Origin: Cephalotus follicularis
Lineage: Eukaryota; Streptophyta; Magnoliopsida; Oxalidales; Cephalotaceae
Assembly (NCBI GenBank): GCA_001972305.1
Contig: BDDD01002039.1
Location: 248,001-312,000, forward strand
Reading direction: 5' to 3'
Length of the DNA: 64,000 nt
Positions 1,477 to 39,000 of this stretch are shown here, piece after piece; the stretch's first letter is position 1, and every line of letters starts with the position of its first letter. A program made the translations under genes and the position numbers. The notes under the pieces are model-generated. The model was not told the origin of the DNA. It made no database searches and saw only the letters and a list, made by a program, of their open reading frames with translations.

Positions 1477-4379
1477 TGTCACACCCCGTTCCCATAACAA
1501 CAATAAAAGTGGTGGCAATCAACATATAAATCCGGCTTATGCAATTTACCATAAATTTAAAACTTTCCAATACCATAAACAACTTGCGGAAGCATATAAC
1601 TATAAGCCGAATTAAAACGTAACATGCATCCCATACTACATGCTACAACAAAAACATCATCAAAGTTAACTGCCCACAAACGGAGCTTGAACAATATTCA
1701 TCAATACATCGATTCATTTATTACAATGATCCATAAACGTTTCTCAAAAGCAGAAACAACATAAACTCCACTTTGCTCCACGGACCACAATGTCACAGTT
1801 CACGATATCACAGTATCACAATGCACAATTCACGGTCTCAAACAAGTCCAAAGGACTACACAATACTCGGTTCACGGTTCGCGGTACACGGTGGGTACGA
1901 AGAGCGTCGCCAACTCCTGGCCCCAACGTCGTACATCCATACATCTGCCCCGACTCCGGACGGCACGAAGCAGGTCACAATACAGTAAGTCACCCAGCCA
2001 ACTCCTGGCCCCTGAGTCAACCCGACCACTAGTCATCGCTGGCATCTCCGCCACGCAACTAGTACGGTCACAATCACAATCACAATCAGCAAACCACAGT
2101 CAACTCAATCACAATCACAGTCATCTCGATGCTCAATACAGTTTTCCAAGTAAATTTATAAAACAAAATACTTGAAAGCAAACTCATTTTCAAGATGTCA
2201 CGGTTCTCGGTTCACAATGTTTACAAAACTCAGTTAACAATGTTTACAAAACTCAGTTCACGATGTTTGGAAGCCATTTTCACAGTCCTTCGAAAATATA
2301 TATTTGCTTGAACATACATTTTCATATAAAATAATGATTTATAATGATCATGAATGCACTTCCAAAAGAATGATACAACAGTTCACAATCAACAATATAC
2401 AGTCACCATCACAGTTCATCACAGTACAAGATGCACACACATGCCCACAATGCAAGACAGACACAAACGGTTATCCCTCACTGACAGTCGGTTGTTTTCC
2501 TTCAACAGTCGGCTGTCCTAAACTGGCAGTCGGCTGCCCACACTCGACAGTCGGCTGTCATCCTTGACAGTCGGCTGTTTATACCCAACAGTCGGCCGCT
2601 GGCCTACAGCAGTCAGCTACTCAAGCCTCTGTAAGCATTTCTCAGTAACACACATGGAAAGTCGACTGGCTCCCAAGCACAATCGGCTGGATCCATTGAG
2701 TAGTCCGTTGTTCATACCGAACAGCCAACTGGCGCACTCGAGCAGTCGGTTGTCCTCTTGGACAGTCGGCTGGATTCTGCAGACTGTGCAGAAAAACAGC
2801 AGCAAAACAAAGCCACAACTCACAACGATCCATTCTAACACACAACAGATCATAACGTCGATGTTATCTCTAAGCGTCAACGTTTATCGCAAATCAAGAC
2901 TCATTGTACGTATAACGATCTATAGCGTCGACGCTTCTTTCCTAAGCGTCGACGGTTAAGCGAACCAAAACATGGTTCCTTCAACACGTCTCAAAACCGA
3001 TCGTGTTCAAGGCATACAACACATGCAATCCGATCTACAATCATCGTAAATCACAATATGCATAGCAGGTTAACTATTCATAGCAACCCTAACACAGTCA
3101 CACAATTCACAATTCACAACCCACAATCATTCCAAGACACGATATGCATGCATTTCATCAAGGAACATTTATTATAATTGAACTCAAACCACATTTATAA
3201 AGTCCCTTACCTGTTACGGCAGTAACAACCGTACAGTCGAGCTGCACGTTCAATTGCCGAACCATTTCGATAACCGTTGAACCGAAGCCGGTTCTCGCCA
3301 ATTGATCAATTCCTCGATGCCAAATCCAATTGCCACTCACACACTGCACATACAACACATTTCCGTTATGTTCTACACACAAAACATTTCCGTCGCCGAA
3401 ACGCCGGCCGGATTCCGACCGACGCAACCAGGCGACAAAACACCCATCAACGGGTTCCACATTGAACGGTCTACACATAACCGGTCAAGACTCGCCGGGA
3501 ATCGGCGCCGAACGCCGCGCCATGGCCGGCAGTGAGTTGCGACTCACTGAGTCAACTCGCCGGACCTCCACAGGTCCGATCACCACCAAAAAACGCCACA
3601 CATTCACCTGTTATACACACCCATGCCCGTGACTCGCCAAGACTCGGCGCTAAACACGCGATCCAAGGCGGCAGTGAGTCGACTCGCTGAGTCGACTCAG
3701 TCAGGCCATTCCGGCCGATTCCGGCCAAATCACGCCTCACCGGTGCTCGAAATGGGAAGAGCGGGCCTTCTAGATGAAAACCCACCCCACCCGCGACGCT
3801 AACGGCGCCGGGAAACGCCGGGAAAAGGCGCGATAGTGGCGGCAAGGAGAAGAAAAAAGAAGAAAAAGAGAAGAAGGGGGAGGAGGTTACCGTCGGTTGG
3901 AGGCCCTAGGTTGACCGGCGTGCTCTCCCGGTCCGGTAGCTGCCTCCGGCGTCCTCTCCCGATCTCTCTGCCGTTCTCTCTCCCAATCTCTCTCTCTCTC
4001 TCTCTGGCGCAGGCGCACAGAGCGCCTGCGTCTCTCTCTTGCACGGGCGCGTCATGTGCCCGTGTCCCTCTCCCCTCCTTTATTCATATTTTGCTTCCTC
4101 CTTAGTATTTTCTGGTAAAATACTAAGGTACGGGTCCCGATTTTTCCCCCAAATCGCGACATAAATTATCCAAACGACCACCAAAATAATCGCAATAAAA
4201 ATGCGAACATTCGGGCTTTATTGTCGCGCATTAAAAATAGACTTTATTAGCCGTCTTAGCTAACACGATTACGACTTAAATGCGTAATGCCTTTTTATTA
4301 CTCCGGGCTCTATCGATTTTATCACAACTGTACATGCACCAATTTCATAATAAATATTTATGAAATTCGGGGCGTTACA
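1477..4379 (-). repeat. Element G 3' LTR (left copy, 2903 bp)
   Basis: It is near-identical to 6039-9079. Compared with that copy it lacks about 200 bp, including a (TA)n tract, after CACGGA near 1784. It keeps about 64 bp near 4249-4312 that the other copy has lost. Inside are a cluster of CAGTCGGCTG repeats (2480-2775), GTCGAC-centred motifs (2855-2955), TGAGTC palindromes (3530-3705) and a CT-rich tract (3955-4010). The open frames here are not conserved coding sequence. Confidence 0.93.
2483..2775. repeat. Irregular CAGTCGGCTG repeat cluster in G LTR
   Basis: About ten copies of GTCGGCTG or one-base variants recur, most at roughly 20-bp steps, for example near 2487, 2507, 2529, 2550, 2568, 2590, 2682, 2744 and 2764. 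The same cluster is in the other LTR at about 7248-7540. Confidence 0.8.
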
Positions 4380-4395
4380 TCCGCCCCTCCTTAAA
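4380..4395 (-). promoter_or_regulatory. Polypurine tract of element G
   Basis: Read on the - strand this is TTTAAGGAGGGGCGGA, directly before the TGTAACGCCCCG start of the 3' LTR. This is the expected site for plus-strand priming. Confidence 0.85.
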
Positions 4396-6022
4396 GAAAT
4401 CTCGTCCCGAGATTCCCTATATTAAACATGTGAAGGTAAAATGCCTTCACCTCTTGCAACCACAGCTCATCCACATCAAACAATTCATAAGCATACGATC
4501 CATAACCATATGGTTTACGACTGCACAATCCATAACCGTACAACCTGTATTCGTTCAATCTGTAACCATACTATATCCATATCACTAGGTCTCCTAGAAC
4601 CCAACATCTTACCCATTATTATTCCGCAACTCCAAATAACTCCAATTAGCACTTGATCAATCATATCACTTTCAATCTCTCAACAGTAAGGATCCCACAC
4701 TGGTATATCCAGCACAGCTCCGCAACAGTCATACATCAATCATACTCAAAAGTGCTATAAGCTAGAACTTTAAACAATCACATCATGTCAGCGGAACAAT
4801 CAGTTGAATACATTTCAACTCTTATAATCCCCCGAAAATTGGGCATGAAGTATTCGTTTACAAGACTATGCCCCCTGTAAAGAAAACACAATTTATATGT
4901 CCACACTCCCGAAGGAGGAACCAACAGTTCACAAACGGGCTCAGCCCTCATCAAACCACAATTCAATAGAATTACATCATTCTAGAACCTCAAGTGATGA
5001 ATCCATTAAAATCAAACTCTTAAGATTTCTCGAAATTTCGGCATGAAGTATTCATTTATCGAACTCCATGCCATCTGATAAACCACAGTTTATATGTTTT
5101 GGGGTTTAACCCTCATATCTCATCACAATCTATATGCTGGGGGCTCCGCCCACACCAGACTCAATAACGATTCATACGATCGCGACACGATCGATAAAAA
5201 TACACTAGCCATTCGCAATGACCACTCATATTCTATTCCGACCAACCGCTATTCGATACGAAAACTTTTCTGACAACACTTATGCCTTTCGACTCATCCG
5301 ATCGACCATTTAGCCATTATGACTTATTCGGAGGGTCACTTAGCCATTATGGCTCATTCGGTTGGTCACTCAACCGCTATATAGTCCATAGCCCTCACTG
5401 TCACTTCATTCGATATATCCCGCAGGATTTCGGGGGGGTCTGCCTTCTTGAAGTCAGCCTTCCTGGCAAGACTAGACCGCTTGGCAGCCTTAGGCACTAT
5501 TTCGGAGGCTTAAACATTAGCCCGATCTCAATCAGAATCAAGATCCATGGAAAACTGGGTAGTTTCACCAAAACAGGGCTATTGGCGTCAACACCATCCT
5601 TTAGGCATCGACGTCATCACTCTAGGTATCTACGTTCATATCAAGCTCTTCCAAAACGTTTCCATCATGCCACGCAACATGGTCAGGAACCACGTGCCTT
5701 GGCTATACTTGTGCGTACAATCGACGCACATCCTCCATGTTTGCAGCATCCGCAGCCATCTGCTGCTGGAAGTAATCCGCTATACGGCTCATAAGGTCCG
5801 TTCTGTCATTTACTTCCTCAGGAACACTCCCATTAGCGGCTCAAGGCCTTCCGCGTCTTCTCCTTCCGTCCATTTCGTTTCCTTTAAGGAAAGATGTCAT
5901 GGTTCATCTCGAGGAAAAAATCGTTAATTGCCAAGGAACTTATTAGCCTGGACAAGTTCCTTCATCCAATTATTTAGTTACCGAGGATAGTATCCCAGCG
6001 ATAGCTTATAAAAGGAATATAA
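4396..6022 (-). other. Element G internal region, almost non-coding
   Basis: About 1.6 kb between purine tract and primer site. No frame shows protease, RT, RNase H or integrase motifs on either strand. The only protein-like signal is a short gag-like start at 5711-5876. The remainder is AT-moderate sequence without recognised features. Confidence 0.7.
5711..5876 (-). pseudogene. gag N-terminus remnant of element G
   Basis: About 150 bases after the primer site, the - strand reads a basic start (MDGRRRRGRP), then a stop. An in-frame continuation follows with DLMSRIADYFQQQMAA and a run of acidic and aliphatic residues ending at another stop. This resembles the opening of plant chromovirus Gag, where a short arginine-rich start precedes a helical region. 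No capsid or zinc-knuckle part follows. The assignment rests on composition and position only. Confidence 0.45.
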
Positions 6023-6034
6023 GCTCTGATACCA
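6023..6034 (-). promoter_or_regulatory. Primer-binding site of element G (initiator tRNA-Met)
   Basis: The - strand reads TGGTATCAGAGC, the common plant retrotransposon primer site complementary to the 3' end of initiator methionine tRNA. Four bases separate it from the LTR. Confidence 0.92.
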
Positions 6035-6038
6035 CTGT

Positions 6039-9000
6039 TGTCACACCCCGTTCCCATAACAACAATAAAAGTGGTGGCAATCAACATATAAATCCGGCTT
6101 ATGCAATTTACCATAAATTTAAAACTTTCCAATACCATAAACAACTTGCGGAAGCATATAAATATAAGCCGAATTAAAACGTAATATGCATCCCATACTA
6201 CATGCTACAACAAAAACATCATCAAAGTTAACTGCCCACAAACGGAGCGTGAACAATATTCATCAATACATCGATTCATTTATTACAATGATCCATAAAC
6301 GTTTCTCAAAAGCAGAAACAACATAAACTCCACTTTGCTCCACGGAACTCAACGGTAACAATCCGCTGCATCAACCTGAAAACAATCTGAAACTGTAGGG
6401 GGGTTAGCATTTGTCCTCACTCGGCTAAGTTATAAACATGATTTGGGGTCAACGATAAAGAATGCTATGTAATGAATGCAACATGATGCAATACATACTA
6501 TATCCCGATGCATGTATATATATATATATACATATATATATACCCAACCACAATGTCACAGTTCACGATGTCACAGTATCACAATGCACAATTCACGGTC
6601 TCAAACAAGTCCAAAGGACTACACAATACTCGGTTCACGGCTCACGGTACACGGTGGGTACGAAGAGCGTCGCCAACTCCTGGCCCCAACGCCGTACATC
6701 CCGACATCGGCCCCGACTCCGGACGGCACGAAGCAGGTCACAATACAGTAAGTCACCCAGCCAACTCCTGGCCCCTGAGTCAACCCGACCACTAGTCATC
6801 GCTGGCATCTCCGCCACGCAACTAGTACGGTCACAATCACAATCACAATCAGCAAACCACAGTCAACTCAATCACAATCACAGTCATCTCGATGCTCATT
6901 ACAGTTTTCCAAGTAAATTTATAAAACAAAATACTTGAAAGCAAACTCATTTTCAGGATGTCACGGTTCTCGGTTCACAATGTTTACAAAACTCAGTTCA
7001 CAATGTTTACAAAACTCAGTTCACGATGTTTGGAAGCCATTTTCACAGTCCTTCGAAAATATATATTTGCTTGAACATACATTTTCATATAAAATAATGA
7101 TTTATAATGATCATGAATGCACTTCCAAAAGAATGATACAACAGTTCACAATCAACAATATACAATCACCATCACAGTTCATCACAGTACAAGATGCACA
7201 CACATGCCCACAATGCAAGACAGACACAAACGGTTGTCCCTCACTGATGGTCGATTGTTTTCCTTCAACAGTCGGCTGTCCTAAACTGGCAGTCGACTGC
7301 CCACACTCGACAGTCGGCTGTCATCCTTGACAGTCGGCTGTTTATACCCAACAGTCGGCCGCTGGCCTACAGCAGTCGGCTACTCAAGCCTCTGTAGGCA
7401 TTTCTCAGTAACACACATGGAAAGTCGACTGGCTCCCAAGCACAATCGGCTGGATCCATTGAGTAGTCCGCTGTTCATGCCGAACAGCCAACTGGTGCAC
7501 TCGAGCAGTCGGTTGTCCTCTTGGACAGTCGGCTGGATTCTGCAGACAGTGCAGAAAAACAGCAGCGAAACAAAGCCACAACTCACAACGATCCATTCTA
7601 ACACACAACGGATCATAACGTCGATGTTATCTCTAAGCGTCGACGTTTATCGCAAATCATGACTCATTGTTCGTATAACGATCTATAGCGTCGACGCTTC
7701 TTTCCTAAGCGTCGACGGTTAAGCGAACCAAAACATGGTTCCTTCAACACGTCTCAAAACCGATCGTGTTCAAGGCATACAACACATGCAATCCGATCTA
7801 CAATCATCGTAAATCACAATATGCATAGCGGGTTAACTATTCATAGCAACCCTAACACAGTCACACAATTCACAATTCACAACCCACAATCATTCCAAGA
7901 CACGATATGCATGCATTTCATCAAGGAACATTTATTATAATTGAACTCAAACCACATTTATAAAGTCCCCTACCTGTTACGGCAGTAACAACCGTACAGT
8001 CGAGCTGCACGTTCAATTGCCAAACCTTTTCGATAACCGTTGAACTGAAGCCAGTTCTCGCCAATTGATCAATTCCTCGATGCCAAATCCAATTGCCACT
8101 CACACACTGCACATACAATACATTTCCTTAATGTTCGACACACAAAACATTTTCGTCGCCGAAACGCCGGCCGGATTCTGACCGACACAACCAGGCGACA
8201 AAACACCCATCAACGGGTTCCACATTGAACGGTCTACACAGAACCAGTCAAGACTCGTCGGGAATCGGCGCCGAACGCCGCGCCACGGCCGGCAGTGAGT
8301 TGAGACTCACTGAGTCAACTCGCCGGACCTCCACAGGTCCGATCACCACCAAAAAACGCCACACATTCACCGGTTATACACACCCATGCCCGTGACTCGC
8401 CAAGACTCGGCGCTAAACGCGCGATCCAAGGCGACAGTGAGTCGACTCGCTGAGTCAACTCAGTCAGGCCATTCCAGCCAATTCTGGCCAAATCACACCT
8501 CACCGGTGGTCGAAATGGGAAGAGCGGGCCTTCTAGATGAAAACCCACCCCACCCGCGACGCTAACGGCTCCGGGAAACGCCGGGAAAAGGCGCGACAGT
8601 GGCGGCAAAGAGAAGAAAAAAGAAGAAAAAGAGAAGAATGGGGAGGAGGTTACCGTCGGTTGGAGGCCCTGGGTTGACCGGCGTGCTCTCCCGGTCCGGT
8701 AGCTGCCTCCGGCGTCCTCTCCCGATCTCTCCGCCGTTCTCTCTCCCAATCTCTCTCTCTCTCTCTCTGGCGCAGGAGCAAAGAGTGCCTGCGTCTCTCT
8801 CTTGCACGGGCGCGTCATGCGCCCGTGTCCCTCTCCCTTCCTTTATTCATTTTTTGCTTCCTCCTTAGTATTTTCTGGTAAAATACTAAGGTACGGGTCC
8901 CGATTTTTTCCGCAAATCACGACATAAATTATCCAAACGACCCCCAAAATAATCGCAATAAAAATGCGAACATTCGGGCTTTATTGTCGCGCATTAAAAA

Positions 9001-9079
9001 TAGACTTTATTAGCCGTCTTATCACAACTGTACACGCACCAATTTCATAATAAATATTTAAGAAATTCGGGGCGTTACA
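6039..9079 (-). repeat. Element G 5' LTR (right copy, 3041 bp)
   Basis: This is the partner of 1477-4379. It has about 200 bp absent from the left copy, covering roughly 6346-6545 and including an alternating TA tract at 6516-6543. It lacks about 64 bp between TAGCCGTCTTA and TCACAACTG near 9020. Lying next to the primer site, it is the 5' LTR and would supply the promoter, reading leftwards. Confidence 0.93.
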
Positions 9080-21092: not shown

Positions 21093-22211
21093 TCAAATAT
21101 TATTTGAATTTTTTGAGAACCGTGGAAAGGCCTGCTGTGGTGCATACTGGGTAGGGAAACTTAAAGGTTGTCCCAAAAAGTGTGAAGGTGGGGCACCAAC
21201 GCTAGAAGGCTGCCCTGAAAAGCTTGATTGTCCTCGCATGTTTTGCCTTTGACTCCATGAAAAATTTGGATGATTTCGCCAACCCGGATTGTAAGTGTTA
21301 CTATACGAGTTGTATTGATTCATTACGAACACATTCTCAGGAGTATATTGATTGTCAATATAAATTTGGCATTCTTCAAAAACATGATTTGGGGACTGGC
21401 ACCAAGAATACATAGGGGTGCTTTGATCGATTTGATTGACTTGTGTGGAACCCCTTAGTAGTAACTCTAGTATAGTCAGGCGACTTTCTAGCTGTGCCTC
21501 CTTAGCAACTGCTCCTTCTATAACGTACCCTTTACTTGACAGAGCTCTCTCGGAAACTTGAGTTGACTCCCACTCTCTAGTTTGCTCGCCCACATCTAAA
21601 AGGAAATTCCATGCCTCGTTTTCACCAGTGTACGAGGTGAACCCATCAGGACACATAGATTCGACCAATTGGTTGGTCTGGTAATCAATACCTTCGTAGA
21701 TCATTTGGCATAAATGTCACGTGTTCAAACCATGATGAGGACATTCTAAGAGAAAATCCTTAAAACGTTCCATACACCTAGAAAATGACTCATTTGGTTT
21801 TTGATGAAACTGGAGAATGTCGTTCCTAAGTTTATTGGTTTTATGAAGTGGAAAGAATTTCTTTAGGAACGAAACAGTGAAATGGTCCCATGTAGAAATA
21901 GAACCTTTGGGGAAACTGTATAGCCACTTTTTAGCTCCATCTTTTAGAGAAAAATTTATGAAACGCAATTTGATTGCGTCATCCGAGAGTTGTTGAAGTT
22001 TCATGAGGGCGCATACCTCCTCGAACTCATGAAGGAAGAGATATGCATCCTCATTGGATAAACCATGAAAGTGTGGAAGCATACTAATGAAATGAGATTT
22101 TAACTCAAAATTATTCCCTTGAGGTGCGAGCAACATGATACAGGATGGTTGCACTGTCCTCGCGGGATAGAATCTATCGCGCAAAGTTTGGAGTGGCCAT
22201 TCGTCTGCCAT
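21093..22211 (-). pseudogene. Athila H gag (one early stop, then truncated)
   Basis: It starts with MADEWPLQTLRDRFYP about 350 bases after the primer site. It contains the retrotransposon Gag domain, with FHGLSNEDAYLFLHEFEEVC, KKWLYSFPKGSISTWD, FLKKFFP and NESFSRCMERFKDFL. An in-frame TGA follows GLNT at about 21717. The frame reopens as MIYEGIDYQTNQLVES and carries a degenerate zinc knuckle (CQSPNHVFEEC), then a Gln/Pro/Ser-rich tail ending at a stop at 21093. The stop at 21717 replaces the tryptophan-like position expected in relatives. Confidence 0.87.
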
Positions 22212-30022: not shown

Positions 30023-33000
30023 GTACAATTACCGAATGAATCTACTTGCTAGGAATCGAGGGACTAAAGCACTAACACTCCTATATTAATCAACAACCCC
30101 TTTATGCTACCACAAGAACCCTTCCCCTACCTCCTGTATCGGAATCTGCCGATCCAATCTCCCGGCTGAGCTGTATCCCACATACAGCATGATTATGTGA
30201 AACGCCATACGCTGATTTGATTTTATTATTTTTTCTTCTTTTGATGCTGCAGGCTTTGGACTTATATCCATTCGGTGGTATTCATATCATATATAAACAC
30301 AGGTTTTTTATTTTTCATTATCCTACGCACAATATTATCACATCCACTCAAATGAGGTGTGCTGACGTTCTTGAGATGATTTCTCGCCTTTTCAGGTCTT
30401 GTGCGAGATTGGCCTTGGGGAATTATAATGGGGCTCTTGAAGATGCCAATGAAGCCTTAACACTATCTCCTCAGTATACTGAGGTGAGCCAAAATTCCTA
30501 GTTCTTATTAGATGGTAACTATGTTGGAGATGCCGGATTATATATTTCAAGTACCTACTGATTTTGTGCATTCTAAAATTTTTAATTTTACTAAAGTCAT
30601 CACAAGTTCTCTTCTATTACCCATCTTTTAAACACTACCAAGTATTAGCTGCCAGAATTCAATGTGCTGAAACCTGCTCTGTCAGCCGACTAAAATGACC
30701 TTTCAGTCATTTAACACGCTTCATGGAAATTTTCATTAGTGAATTAGGATTTCCATTCGAGAGTGGAATTTACTGTGCTAAAGGTATTAGATGCTAGGCG
30801 AGGATACAGACGACATGGTTTTATGAGTGGTTGATTCTGAATGCTGCTTTAGTGTATAGAAAATGTTATGTTTTGAATAATTTGTCTTGTCAATTCATGA
30901 TAGAGGAGTAGCCAAATTAACAGTTCCCAAACAAATGAAGAAAAGCAGGGTTCGCTTTCTTGGAAGGTGACATCCATGTAATAAACAGTTTCCAAGAAGG
31001 AGGATGATTACATTTGTAACCTTTCTGTGAAGTAGAGTAGCCAAGGAAAAAACAACGAAAGGCTCAATGATCAACTTTGTTGCCTGAGGGATGAGAGTTA
31101 TGGGCAAAGCACACACACTCAAAGACATTGGGGGGAAGATAAGAAGTGAATGAAGGATCTAGTAGAAGAGAAGCACGAGTCTTGAAACTAAGCGTGCTTC
31201 TGGTACTTCTGTTGATGATATAGGCAGAAGTGAGAACAACATCTACCCCATACATTTTGGGAACACTCATTGTGAAAAAATATGTTTGTTTTTTCTTTCT
31301 AGGATATAAATTTTTTGAGGAGTACAAACACAAGAGGTTTGAGGAAGAATCCCCCATGCTCATCAAGATAGGGGCAAAAATTACCATCAATATACTCAGT
31401 TCCATTATCACTACTAAGAATTTGAATGCGAGCGTGAAAATTGAGTACGTATCATTGCATGATTAGACTTCAAATAATCAAAAGCCTCATTATTTGTGCA
31501 AAGAAGATAAACACAAGTGAAGCGAGTGTAATTATCAACAAAAGAAATAAAGTATCTATACTATCACAAGAAATAGTCCTAGAAAGACTCCACAAATCAT
31601 AATGTATAATAGAAACAAACATAATACTTTTATTCAAACTTGAAGAATAATGAGAGTGTGCATGTTTTTCAAGTTCGCAGAAATCACAAGCAAATTGCTC
31701 TTTAGTACACTCTTTTGTCAAATCATGAAATAAAACAGATAAAACCCTACAAGAGAGATGACCTAGACGTTTGTGTCATTGAAGCAAAGAAGGAAGGTTA
31801 GACCAGATCTGACGTAAAAAAAAACAGGAAATAGATAAAAGATAACAACTGATTTGAAGGGAGAACGATTTTGTGTTTTGAAAGTAGAACTCAGTTCTGA
31901 TTTTATTCTCAATAATAATAATAATCCATCATAAAACTCATAAAGGGCTATTTATACTAAAACATCAGAAAACCCTAGTAGCACAACCCCTTTAAGTTTA
32001 TTAAAAAGTCACATGCTAATCACATGACCCTTCTAAAAAAAAATACTTAAGACTCACAACCGGAACTTAATAAAACTGTCTGGGCTAACAAAACAGGACT
32101 AAATAAAATATTAGAAAGCCTGCTGTGCCTTAGAATTCTTCTTGGATGCTCCTGCATCAATCCTTCCGGATGGGGAAAAACTTGGCACAGCAAAAACTTT
32201 GACAACTTCATCATATATCTTAGGATCAATCTTCTTTAACTCCTCTTCAGCAATCCAAGTACTCTCACTAGATGGTTTGCCCAACCATTTCACTAAAAAT
32301 CTCCTGTACTGGTTACCACGCCTGGAATTCACTTCTTTGACATCTAAAACATCTTCAACAACCTCTCGCTTCTCCTTTGGAAGGTGATCAACTTGTTTCT
32401 CCACTGCTGTTACCTCTCCATCGAAACCTTCAAACGAAGGCAAATCAGGGACATTGAAAACTGGACTGATGTTCAAATTTGGTGGCAACTCTATCACATA
32501 AGCATTGGAACTAATCTTCTTCAATACCTTACATGGACCAAACTTCTTGGACTGAAGTTTGTGATAAGTCCCTTTGGGATGTCTCTCACGTCTCAAATGC
32601 ACCAACACCATGTCCCCTTCTTTGAATTCCTTAACTCGCCTATGTCGGTTTGCCGTTGCTGCATAAGCTTCATTATTAACCTTTAAGGCATTCCTAACCT
32701 CCTCATGAACCCTTCGAATATGATCTGCAAAAGCCTCCCCGTCATCACTTACCCGAGCTTCTTGAGGTAATGGAACTAAATCAAAAACATCCTGAGGTTT
32801 CAGCCCATATGCTGCTTCAAAATGTGTCTTCTTTATGGTTCTATTCACATAATTGTTATATGCAAACTCAGCCCATGGAATGATTGAATCCCAGGTTTTC
32901 ACATGATTTCCTACTAGGCACCGTAACATATTACCCAAACTGCGGTTAACTGATTTAGTTTGCCCATCTGTTTGGGGGTGACAAGTGCTCGAGTAGTTCA

Positions 33001-36000
33001 ATTCAGTCCCTAGTTTCCTCCATAAAGTCCTCCAAAAATGCCCCATGAACTTTGTATCTCTATCAGACATAATGGAAGTTGGAAGGCCATGTAATCGTAC
33101 CACTTCTTTAAAGAATAGTTCAGCAATGTATACAACATCTGAGGTTTTGAAACAGGGAATAAAATGTGCCATTTTGGAATAACAGTCAACCACAACAAAG
33201 ATAGAATCATACCCCTTCGCTGTCTTTGGAAGTCCCAATATAAAATCCATGCTTAAATGGGAGCTTCTGGCTGTGGTAAGGGAGTATACAAACCAGTATT
33301 TTGTGAATTCCCTTTACCCAATTGACACGTCGGACACCTTTTCACCAACCTTTCTACATCCTTATACATCCTGGGCCAAAAATAGCGATCAGTCACCATT
33401 GCCATAGTTTTATCCCCGCCAAAGTGTCCTCCCAAACCATTTCCATGAAGTTCCCGTATGATTTGCTCGCGTAAGGATCCCTCGGGAATGCATAACTAGT
33501 TGCCGTTGAATAAATACCCATCATGTAATCTGTATGGCAGGTTGTCTTGTCCCTTTGATCTTTGCAATTCAGCTACGATGTGGCTGAAGTATGGATCGCT
33601 GGAATATTGATTTTTCAGTTCTTCAAACCTTGTAACTTGCGTGCTTAAAACTGTGAGTATTAAAGACCTCCTGCTCAGCGCATTTGCAACCTTATTGGAC
33701 TCACCAGACTTGTATGTAATTGAAAAATTAAATTGCTGAAGGAAAGAACTCCATGCAACATGACGTGAATCAAGTTTTTTTTTGAGAATTCAGTTACCTT
33801 AACGGTTGATGATCTGAATAAACCAAGAACTCTCGATATGCCAAATAGTGTTGAGAATGACCAATTGCACGCACTAAAGCGTAAAATTCTAAATCATATG
33901 TTGAATATCGCCTCTTAGCATTTGATAACTTCTCATTAAAAAATTCCACTGGTCTACCATCTTGACTGAGAACAACCCTTATTCCAACATGTGAGGCATC
34001 ACACTCCACGACAAAAAGTTTCTCAAAGTTTGGTAGTGCAAGTACTGGTGCTGTTGTCATCAATGTTTTGATCCGGTCAAAGGCCCTCTGCGCTGGTTTT
34101 GACCACTCAAAACTAGTGCTCTTTAAACATTCTGTTATAGGACTCATGACTGAACTGAAATCCCTTATGAATCTTCTGTAAAATGAGGCCAAACCATGAA
34201 AACTACGAACATCTTTCAGAGTTTGTGGTGCTGGCCATTCCTTGATAGCACGTACTTTCTCTGAATCTGGTGATAAACCGTTTGTGGACACAACAAACCC
34301 AAGAAACACAACTTCATCACACAAGAGAGAACACTTCTTTAAATTTAAATACAGTTTCTCCTTGAGAAGAACTGCCATCACTTCACGTAAATGAATCAAA
34401 TGCTCTTCTTTAGTCCGACTATATATCAGAATGTCATCGAAGTAAACAACAACAAAGGATCCCAAGAAAGGTTTGAGTACCGCTGTCATAACGCGCATGA
34501 AAGTGCTGGGTGCATTAGAAAGTCCAAACGGCATCACTAACCACTAAAAAAGCCCATCTGGTGTTTTAAAAGCAGTCTTCCACTCATCTCCACTTCTCAT
34601 CCTAATTTGGTGATACCCACTCCTCAAATCTAACTTGGAGAACATTTTAGATCCAGCTAACTTGTCAAGCATGTCGTCTAAACGAGGAATTGGAAAACGA
34701 TACCGCACAGTAATTTTGTTGATAGCACGGTTATCTACACACATACTCCATGATCCATCCTTTTTAGGTGTCAGTAAGGCTGGACAAACACAAGGACTCA
34801 TACTCTCTCGTACTAACCCCTTTGCAATCAAACCCTCCACCTATCTTTGTATTTCAGTTCGTTGTACTGGCGGCATTCTATAGGCTGGCAGGTTTGGCAA
34901 AGTTGCTCTGGCACTAAGTCAATTACATGTTGGATGCTCCTCATTGGTGGCAAACCCCCTGGCAAATCATCTCTAACCAGCTCCTTAAAGTCCTTTAGCT
35001 ACCCCTTAATCTCTAAAGGATATTTATCATACTCCACAAACTGATCTTCTGTCACAATGTTACCAACCAAAGCATACATAACTCCGACCTCTTTACTCTC
35101 AAATTCAAACTTTCCAGCAGCAACCTTGTTAATAAGGAAACCATTAACGCTGCTCTCATTGTGAGGTTTACTAATTTCTTCCTTAAGAGGGTGCAAGGTA
35201 TAAGTTTTTTTTTAGCTCTTTGGAAGGAATAAGTATTAGGCTTAGTGCAATGGACCATGTCATGGTCATACAACTTCCCAATAGAACATGACAAGCATCC
35301 ATGGGCACATTGTCACACAAGGCCTCATCTTCAAGATTATCACCCATAGTAAATTTAACCAAGCATCGAGATGTAACCGGAACTTCATTTCCCTTCCGAA
35401 ACCAACTAATTTTATAAGGATGAGGGTGTTTCTCAATAGGCAACTTTAACTTCTCAACAGCATCCCTAGCAACAATATTTTCAACACTACATCCGTCAAA
35501 AATAACATTACATACCTTGCCACCACAAAGAAATCGCGTTCTAAAAATATTTCCCCGCCTACAATCTTCTTCTCCTTCATCATCACCTGCTATCAACACT
35601 TGTCGCACCACCAAAGATTCCCCTTGCACTGGGTAAATATCGACATCTTCTTCCTTATCATTGTAGATGTCATACGTGGGCTCGGGCATCTCTTCTTCTC
35701 CTTTTTCCAACTCAGCCATATTCACCCTACGTTGTGGGCAAGAATAGGAAACGTGGCCTTTATCACCACAACTATAACATCTGACTGGAGCCCCACTATT
35801 GGCATTTGAAACACAGAACTGTTTTGTGCTCCATAACGTGCAACCTCCTTTCCTTTCTCACTCCTATAGGCATTACTAATACCTCCACCACCTGGCCGAT
35901 TAATTGGGGTTGTTTCTCGGTTATTCCGCTGGGCTGGTTGCTCACCCTGAGGGCTTCTAGTAGACCCCAAGGTCCTCTGTGATGTGCCATCAAATCTGCC

Positions 36001-39000
36001 AGACAAAGGCTTCCTTGCACCATAGCGTAGCACACGTTGTTCTGCCATTAAAGCATATTGTCGAGCATCTTCAAGATTAAACAAACGAACCACTCCTTGC
36101 TCATCTCTGATGGACTGATTCTAGCCTGACAGATAACGGGATGTCATCTGCTCATCAGACTCGTTTAAACCAACCCGGAGAGAGAGGTTATTAAATTCAG
36201 AAGTATATTCTTCCACCGACATTCCATTTTGCTTTAGCAAATGGAACTTCTCATACAAAGTCTGGACATAATCAGCCGGCAAAAATTGCTTCCTCATCTT
36301 TGCTTTCATGTGTCCCCATGTGTTGATTTTTTTTTTTTAAAAGGGGGTGCAACACGAGGACTTCCCAGGAGGTCACCCATCCCGGTACTAATCTCGCCCA
36401 AGCACGCTTAACTGCGGAGTTCTGATGGGATCCGGTGCATTACTGCTGGTATGATCGCACCCTGTGTTGATTTTTGACTTGCCTTGTCGAGCACGTTGCT
36501 CCTCAACTCTCTTCCACCATTGAAGGGCAGTACTCTTTAACTTAAGCTTCACAAACAACACCTTCCGATCTTCGGCCATGGGTTTCCATTCAAAATAGTT
36601 CTCCAGGCTTGCTTCCCAATCCAAATAATCTTCTACATGCATCTTTCCAAAAAAATCAGCAACTTCTATTTTGATACCAACACCACCCAAATCAAAGGCA
36701 TGTACCAAACGTTCTTCCAGTCCGCCTCTTACCACTTGTTCTGCAGTTCCAGCATCTTGGAAGGGGTTTTCATCGTTGCCAACAGAGTCTTCATTCTCTG
36801 GAGTACCTGCCGGTATCTCCATACGGCCTTCCGCACGTTCCTGTCGCTGAATAGCTTGTACAGCCCGCAACAAATCCCCAATCATATGTCGCATCTCATC
36901 CATCTCTGCTTGCTGGCCTTGGTTTACTCTTCCACGACCTCTTCCACGTCGGTTCATGTCTCTGATACCACTTGACGTAGAAAAAACAGGAAATAGATAA
37001 AACATAACAACTGATTTGAAGGGAGAACGATTTTGTGTTCTGAAAGTAGAACTCAATTCTGATTTATTCTCAATAATAATAATAATCCACCATAAAACTC
37101 ATAAATGGCTATTTATACTAAAACATCAAAAAACCCTAGTAGCACAGCCCCTTTAAGTTTATTAAAAAGTCACATGCTAATCACATGGCCCTTCTAAAAA
37201 AAAACAACTTAAGACTCACAACCGGAACTTAATAAAAATGTCTGGGCTAACAAAATAGGATTAAATAAAATATTAGAAAGCCTGCTTGGCCTTAGAATTC
37301 TTATTGGATGCTCATGGATCAATCTTGAGAAATACAAAGGGTAGAGAAAAAAACAACACAACAGTTTAGTTTCAAGGTTAGGCGATATATAAAGAGCAAC
37401 TTATTACTAAGGTTAAGAACAAGAAGGACGAAAGGTAAGGACAATGTAGGAGTACAATGAACGATACCAATTCTTGTGATAGATGAAAGAGACTCATCTG
37501 CAACCTTAATTTTTTTATTTACCGTACCAAGGGCAATAAGAGTGAAATAATTCTGATTGGCTAATCATTTGATCAGAAATTCCATAATCAATGATGCAGT
37601 AGCAGTTTAAAAAAAAAAAAACTGTTCATGCGTACAGTAGCAGTCGGATTTTTAAGGGTTTTTATGTCTTTTAATTATTTCTTTTATGTTTAGGATTATT
37701 ATTAGGATTTCTATTTTGAATAAGATTTATTTCATCCATATATAAGAGGCTATTAGGGTTGTTTTATTATTAGAGTCTTGATATTTTCAGAATTAATAAA
37801 TAAAAGAATTCTCTTTTTCTTTCCCCAACTTAAATTACCAAAAGACAACCCAATTGGTGTTTTCTTTCCTTGGCTTAAATTATCAGAAGACAACCCAATT
37901 GGTGTTGTGTTTGTCCTTCTCTTTTGATCTCTTAATATTTCCGCTGCGTTAATTTGTTATCAGAGCCGAAGATTGATCTCAATTTGCTATGATAGTAAGA
38001 AGACAGAGGATTCCTAGGCTAAACCAAACCCAAGCAATATTAGAGATACAACATAGTATGGCAGAATTGATGCAAGAAGTGCGAGCCTTGCGTCGAGGTC
38101 ATGCGGAAGCTCGACATGAAGTAAGGAAGGTGACCGTGATCCCTTGAACCTACCGGAAGAAGGCTTTGGGGAAGAAGACGACAGATTTGAAGAAGTTAAT
38201 TCGTTCAATAATCCAGTGAATTGTGATCAGCCCGAGTGCGGTAGATTAGAAGAACGGTTGGCAAGAGCACTTGATTTTAATTCTTGAATTCGAATTAAAG
38301 TCCTTGATTTCCATGGGAAGATGCATGCTGTGATTTTTTAGATTGGGAATCAAACTTGGAGAATTATTTTGAATGGAAGCCTATGCCTGATGATAGAAAA
38401 GTATTATTTGTGAAGTTAAAATTGAAGGGAACAACACTTCAATGGTGGAAAAGGTTGGAGGAGCAACGGGTTAGGCAAGGTAAGCAGAGGATTCATACTT
38501 GGGAAGCAATGAAAACGAAGCTAAGAAAGCAATTTCTTCCAGCTAATTATATGATGAATTTGTATAAGTGATTTCATGGACTACGACAAAAAGAATTAAG
38601 TTTGGAAGAGTACACCAGTGAGTTTTATAATTTATCCATAAGGGTTGGAATTAATGAGACGGATGAGCAACTTACTGCATGGTATTTATTTGGTTTGAGG
38701 CTTGCTGTCCGTGATGAGATTGGTATTCATCATCTTTCCAATCTTGAGGATGCACATCAATATACCCTTAAAGCCGAAGAACGGGTAGCTCGCTATGGTC
38801 ATTGGCGTTTTTCATCACCTGCAACATCTGGTTCCAGGTTTGCAAGTGCTTTCCAAAGGACAAGGAGTGGTCAAATGACTGCAAGAACAAATTTTGAAGT
38901 TGGTGGTACAAGCAAGTCGACTTCTAAGGTTGGTGGGGGACCTAATAATAGGGGTGAAGGGGGTAGAGAATTGAATCATTTTGGTGCAGTAAACAGGGCT

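Follow-up and report, generated by a model that had tools for sequence, protein, structure and literature searches.

Host element and structure of the 5S rRNA copy

The window, meaning the whole stretch of 64,000 nucleotides analysed here, contains a Ty3/Gypsy chromovirus on the minus strand at positions 31810–37324, delimited by comparison of its LTRs and by the domain matches of its ORFs. The LTRs, situated at 31810–32162 and 36973–37324, show 18 differences over 351 aligned sites (JC 0.053), and the ORFs of the element match reverse transcriptase, RNase H, integrase, chromodomain and zinc knuckle. A complete 5S rRNA copy is located outside both LTRs, in the gag region. The ORF piece beside it (36388–37098) has no Pfam match; we call it gag because it precedes the zinc knuckle and because the joined flanks encode protein sequence that presumably resembles Ty3 gag. 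When the 90-bp flanks of the insertion are joined, one open frame runs across the insertion site, with another stop in the host frame further on. Furthermore, a stretch of a related element on the plus strand at 38285–38744 is uninterrupted at the matching site 38499/38500, as aligned pairwise through two short flanks, and represents a paralogous empty site; it is 73% alike to the host over 240 bp upstream.

Read from the sequence, the 5S copy comprises 120 nt on the minus strand from 36462 to 36343, and Rfam RF00001 matches it at 36462–36344 with 109 bits (E 4.8e-23) over model positions 1–120 of 120. Three substitutions in 120 positions (C20G, G72T and T79C) separate it from the canonical 5S of the genome, an identity of 97.5%. 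The copy starts exactly at the 5′ end of 5S RNA, without genomic spacer. Its 3′ end is followed, on the minus strand, by TTTT (36339–36342), corresponding to a retained Pol III terminator or U tail, then by twelve As (36327–36338) and the 13-bp repeat AAAAATCAACACA. On the plus strand, the order is TGTGTTGATTTTT at 36319–36331, further Ts up to 36338, AAAA at 36339–36342, the 5S, and TGTGTTGATTTTT again at 36463–36475. In the orientation of the copy (minus strand), the upstream target site duplication is thus situated at 36463–36475 and the downstream one at 36319–36331. Five of the twelve As also belong to the downstream duplication, leaving seven outside it, so that the tail proper measures 7–12 As. 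The 13-bp duplication is perfect and still intact. The complete insertion amounts to 144 bp, a multiple of three, and adds three stop codons to the host frame.

The initial annotation had described a full-length 5S copy followed by TTTT, a run of As and a perfect duplication of 13 bp, lacking a SINE body and residing inside a retrotransposon gag. The sequence and the Rfam match confirm the first of these points. The absence of a composite body is evident from the T4 and A tail that follow the 5S directly, and the location in gag, here that of a chromovirus, agrees with the single frame of the joined flanks. Comparison with the genome's 5S, which had been proposed for dating, gives a divergence of 2.5% (three changes in 120 sites, on one lineage), compared with 5.3% for the LTR pair, or approximately 2.7% for each LTR. 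The host and 5S insertions are therefore put at a similar age, a few million years or less under commonly used plant substitution rates, an estimate that rests on three changes.

We also considered whether the window copy might be a piece of a Cassandra-type TRIM, since these elements occur widely in plants and their LTRs contain 5S sequence (PMC10853983). However, the target duplication abuts the 5S and its tail, and the absence of LTR sequence between the duplication and the copy ruled this reading out; the completeness of the copy and its 97.5% identity to the canonical 5S likewise speak against it, and the probability left to it is negligible.

Comparison with array copies and chance matches

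The duplications were evaluated by the longest stretch at the very end of the 5′ flank that reappears in the 60 nt after the copy. This stretch reaches 13, 13, 13, 13 and 15 in the window copy and the four further tailed copies described below, against 0–5 in 63 array copies, 0–5 in 20 mismatched flank pairs and 5 for a full-length 5S at C3436. Beforehand, 12 of 75 array HSPs had been set aside because of gaps, incompleteness or closeness to an end. Flank matches of at least 6 occur in 0 of the 63 array copies. When the last 20 bases of the window 5′ flank were shuffled 200,000 times, 9 shuffles reached 13 or more, which places the window duplication above chance; long chance matches are commoner here than under even composition because the insertion region is AT-rich.

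The array units possess a TATA-like TATATAGG near −28 and mostly a C at −1. Array spacer beside the window copy, which the initial annotation had singled out as contrary evidence, was looked for: TATATAGG is missing from the flank, as is the C, and both flanks consist of gag-region sequence. Such flanks, devoid of array spacer, ruled out an array unit at this position. The Ts after the 5S are less discriminating, with 38 of the 63 array copies carrying five or more, 4 carrying four and 21 carrying 0–3. Consequently, T3–4 alone is not decisive; the decisive feature is T3–4 followed immediately by an A tail, together with the duplication.

These data also bear on a move at the DNA level, in which an array unit would have been displaced by recombination, through an extrachromosomal circle or as repair filler, and the A run would have arisen by chance. 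Tailless 5S pieces do exist in the genome, as a fragment at C3704 and at the centre of an inverted repeat at C3436, and could be products of such moves. However, a displaced unit would carry spacer and the gene's own T-run, whereas all five tailed copies display the exact 5′ start, T3–4 and then As, and duplications of 13–15 bp, with no spacer, and none of the 63 array copies has a flank match of comparable length. We consider a DNA-level origin of the tailed copies extremely improbable.

Further tailed copies in the genome

The genome (1.58 Gb in 9,746 contigs) was searched with RF00001 and with BLAST, and 47 and 40 places, respectively, were scored among the matches listed, a limited sample of candidates. 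Its 5S and the relatives of its transposons mark this genome as that of a plant; among the matches listed for the copia protein of the window, 52–68% identical, the named sources are eudicots belonging to many families. Forty of the 47 scored places fall within three arrays, at C24, C252 and C789. Four places outside the arrays share the anatomy of the window copy, including a full-length 5S, T3–4, an A-rich tail and a private perfect duplication. The copy at C24:211269–211388 has 0 substitutions and the duplication AACCATTCTTGAA; it adjoins a 5S array, approximately 3 kb from the nearest full unit. The copy at C2247:308698 has six substitutions, every one a C-to-T or G-to-A change, and the duplication AATATCAAATGAA. 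At C1585:158670, a copy with six substitutions ends in the tail A11TA9 and is flanked by AATGTTCTAATAT, and at C3822:15609, a copy with two substitutions ends in (AAAT)n and is flanked by AATAAATGAGTTGAG. Hence, the duplications of the five copies measure 13, 13, 13, 13 and 15 bp, within the approximately 7–20 bp typical of LINE-type (L1) retropseudogenes, all starting with AA, and T3–4 followed by an A-rich tail is present in 5/5, the tails of the last two copies being not pure A.

Pattern searches for the 5S 3′ end joined to an A tail, with at most 3 mismatches, returned 4 and 5 places, all among the five copies, and the reversed-pattern controls returned 0. The count of five holds at the sensitivity of these patterns, which short or strongly diverged tails would escape. 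They replaced a first, looser tail pattern that was unspecific as a count (110 places against 92 in the reversed control); among the places listed for it, 5S sequence was present at C24, C88, C1585, C2039 and C2247.

The search of the same genome for dispersed tailed copies with separate duplications, as the initial annotation had suggested, thus yielded four more. Its proposal that the window copy was either a one-off event or the founder of a 5S-headed SINE family holds in neither part: five copies exist, and the other four share neither the substitutions nor the flanks of the window copy.

A copia-type gag ORF (Pfam PF14223) lies shortly downstream of the C1585 copy, and TGGTATTAGAG at this locus would be a primer site. 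The copy may be situated at the border of LTR and primer site, but a 3′ LTR was not found in approximately 12 kb downstream. The alignment of a second copia-type copy, in L055, sets in only deeper within gag, too far in to reveal the empty site. The C3822 copy (L023:5009–5127) is located between two ORFs, the second of which matches glycosyltransferase 8 weakly, with a score under the Pfam cut-off; this copy may lie in an intron.

Source gene and independence of the copies

The canonical 5S was taken as the majority of the 63 array copies, except at position 80, where G occurs in 30 and A in 31. Across the five tailed copies, none of the 17 substitutions is common to two copies. Position 79 is altered in two of them, to C and to G, and the C24 copy equals the canonical 5S. 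Several C2247 substitutions recur in some array copies (e.g. T at position 28, in 13 of 63), and part of them may accordingly come from the source gene. Since no substitution is common to different copies, the simplest account is five separate retropositions of ordinary 5S RNA.

The alternative is a 5S-headed SINE family, in which the copies would descend from a mobile source copy instead of the gene arrays. The five copies do have the same layout of 5S, T3–4 and A-rich tail, and their full length means that the internal promoter region is present in every one. However, in addition to the lack of common substitutions, the two changes at position 79 differ from each other, one copy matches the canonical 5S exactly, an added body is absent, and only five copies lie within 3 mismatches of the tail patterns. 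Within the same searches, no second tailed copy with the substitutions of the window copy was found. A family of this kind is highly improbable, and a 5S-derived SINE (SINE3) family was rejected on the basis of the five copies, which have neither shared diagnostic substitutions nor a composite body.

All five copies carry G at position 80; the same base occurs in 6 of 7 tested units at C24 and in 22 of 34 at C789, but in only 2 of 22 at C252, a pattern that is suggestive only as a pointer to the source array. The tested array copies average approximately 93% identity to the canonical 5S, and C789 has stretches read as N; for these reasons, the main functional 5S array is probably not fully assembled.

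Proposed mechanism of retroposition

The window copy is very probably a 5S rRNA retropseudogene, formed by LINE-type retroposition of a 5S transcript bearing its terminator and an oligo(A) tail, with at least four further such events from canonical 5S. In this process, a Pol III 5S transcript keeping its terminator U residues would be extended by a short oligo(A) tail. The reverse transcriptase of an L1-type LINE would then nick an A-rich target in the Ty3 gag region, and target-primed reverse transcription from the nick would generate the full-length 5S, T4, the A tail and the 13-bp duplication. The same process would have occurred at least four other times in the genome, each time from canonical 5S. 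The T3–4 agrees with the U tail that a completed Pol III transcript carries. Mobilisation by a LINE of a 5S transcript with its terminator Ts, as originally annotated, is supported by the T4, the A tail and the duplication; both the involvement of a LINE and the L1-clade identity of the machinery are inferred from these marks of the copies. The nick sites of the five copies, TC/AAAA, CT/AACC, TG/AATA, TT/AATG and GG/AATA, show only a loose fit to TT/AAAA, with TT before the nick in one of the five.

The origin of the As is the least supported step. The oligo(A) appears to have been attached to the RNA itself, for instance in RNA quality control, and not made during reverse transcription. Yeast 5S is described as polyadenylated at −2, −3 and +11, with an average of 12–14 As (PMC11115967), and a poly(A)-type recognition has been proposed for L1 of flowering plants, according to PMC3747384; because of these two observations, adenylation of unprocessed 5S RNA before target-primed reverse transcription is favoured. 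Less probable, though a serious alternative, is that the reverse transcriptase began on a non-adenylated 5S-U4 RNA and that the As arose through primer slippage or through switching off LINE poly(A). Tailless retropseudogenes of mammals, as presented in PMC5322556, show that L1 uses untailed RNAs, and the (AAAT)n form of one tail would accord with such a start. However, in 5/5 copies the tail sets in at the same point, after T3–4, as a tailed pre-5S RNA would predict, and the adenylation sites reported for yeast 5S include one past the mature end (PMC11115967), which favours adenylation of the RNA itself.

Comparison with known 5S retrocopies and SINEs

The window copy is of a known kind, the 5S retropseudogene, in a new setting. 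Retrotransposed 5S genes have reportedly been studied in rodents. Tailed plant 5S retrocopies with target duplications were not encountered in a search of the open-access PMC literature. In mammals, 5S retropseudogenes made by L1 are known (PMC5322556, PMC13174262), and in both settings LINE-type machinery copies 5S RNA into DNA and integrates it with target duplications. However, the mammalian cases described in these sources are tailless and truncated or are 5S/LINE-1 chimeras, whereas 5/5 of the present copies are full length with U3–4 and an A-rich tail, in a plant.

For plants, the account in PMC5322556 gives only eight tailless U2 copies, from maize. L1-like mRNA retrocopies of dicots (PMC4838847) resemble the present copies in the A tail, the target duplication and the A-rich target. 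They derive from mRNA templates, and a single case fits the full mammalian model according to the authors of that source, compared with five clean 5S cases here. Retroposition of foreign RNA by plant LINEs appears rare or restricted in these two sources (PMC4838847, PMC5322556); five clean cases in one genome suggest recurrence, with an RNA that is not normally polyadenylated.

SINE3 elements, as characterised in PMC10886601, likewise have a 5S head with the internal Pol III promoter region, but the present copies lack a body and shared substitutions, and the families named in that source are from animals. 5S-related SINEs are also named in a fungus (PMC5063351), and PMC3095306, citing the Cassandra paper, includes plants among the SINE3 retrotransposons with 5S-homologous sequences. 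Plant 5S pseudogenes described in PMC6526317 are array- or unit-linked. In the case of the 5S within Asteraceae 35S units, a retrotransposon-mediated event has been suggested in PMC3095306, without a duplicated integration site.

A dispersed family, probably of LTR type, that carries 5S nucleotides 1–64

A pattern of 5S nt 1–29 preceded by a non-C base, with at most 3 mismatches, matched 489 places in the genome, including some array units and retrocopies, against 0 for the reversed-pattern control. Among 100 places listed, 86 are exact, 4 of these at loci already covered. In 6/6 fetched places (L056–L063; C257, C290, C315, C509, C413 and C7), the 5S part is embedded in a conserved longer repeat. 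Compared with 5S, these six match at 58–62 of 64 positions over nt 1–64 (the first 29 of which were fixed by choosing exact matches), at 11–18 of 23 over nt 65–87 and at 12–14 of 33 beyond. In the two wider loci, L062 and L063, the 5S part begins 244 and 236 nt, respectively, before the polypurine-like tract AAGGGGGG. In L062, the sequence starting with TGTAACACC after the tract is repeated approximately 2.7 kb upstream with 96% identity over 102 bp, and no second 5S match at E 0.01 occurs in the 12 kb examined. From its sequence, the family resembles a putative LTR-type element whose internal part contains the 5S sequence.

In Cassandra, the 5S is located in the middle of the LTR and always comprises the A box, the intermediate element and the C box, as stated in PMC10853983. 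In the present family, by contrast, the 5S part is internal and its similarity fades before the end of the C box, and for these reasons the family was not assigned to Cassandra. Both Cassandra and the window arrangement join 5S sequence to an LTR retroelement; however, the mid-LTR 5S of Cassandra amplifies with its element (PMC10853983), whereas the 5S of the window is complete and was inserted, LINE-type, into the gag of another element.

For the origin of the Cassandra 5S, spatial association, recombination or extrachromosomal DNA are proposed in PMC10853983, and PMC10886601 reports a proposal of SINE3 insertion into an LTR. Complete 5S modules have been retroposed into LTR-element sequence in the window gag region, with the C1585 copy just upstream of a copia-type gag frame. 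It is conceivable, albeit unlikely on present data, that an oligoadenylated 5S precursor is a recurrent LINE substrate, that its insertions seed LTR elements with a Pol III promoter module, and that the family with 5S nt 1–64 is a successful outcome independent of Cassandra. If true, such seeding would trace 5S-bearing LTR elements back to an RNA intermediate, an origin that the Cassandra papers cited here leave open. A retroposition route of 5S into LTR elements is directly checkable in other plant genomes.

Other 5S pieces and features of the window

Several further 5S pieces were recorded in the genome. At C3436 (L024:557–2139), a full-length 5S with 2 substitutions, lacking target duplication and tail, occupies the centre of a long inverted repeat near the contig start. 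The arms exceed 700 bp at approximately 95–99% identity, and further out each arm contains a 52-nt 5S-like piece (75–77%); the inverted repeat could be biological or an assembly artefact. At C3704 (L022:5003–5103), a 5S fragment is present that aligns over 101 nt with 99% identity; it has no tail or clear duplication and is possibly repair filler. At C88 (L033:1518–1569), the last 52 nt of 5S at 100% identity are followed by TCACAAT and ten As, and no duplication was found by eye.

Elsewhere in the window, at 1477–9021, two direct repeats (1784–4258 and 6547–9021, 97.2% identical) resemble long LTRs, and short parts of them are 68–82% like the putative LTR of the 5S-bearing family. In addition, the plus strand at 21727–21833 matches the plant snoRNA snoR71 (RF00097) with 52.6 bits, against a cut-off of 40.
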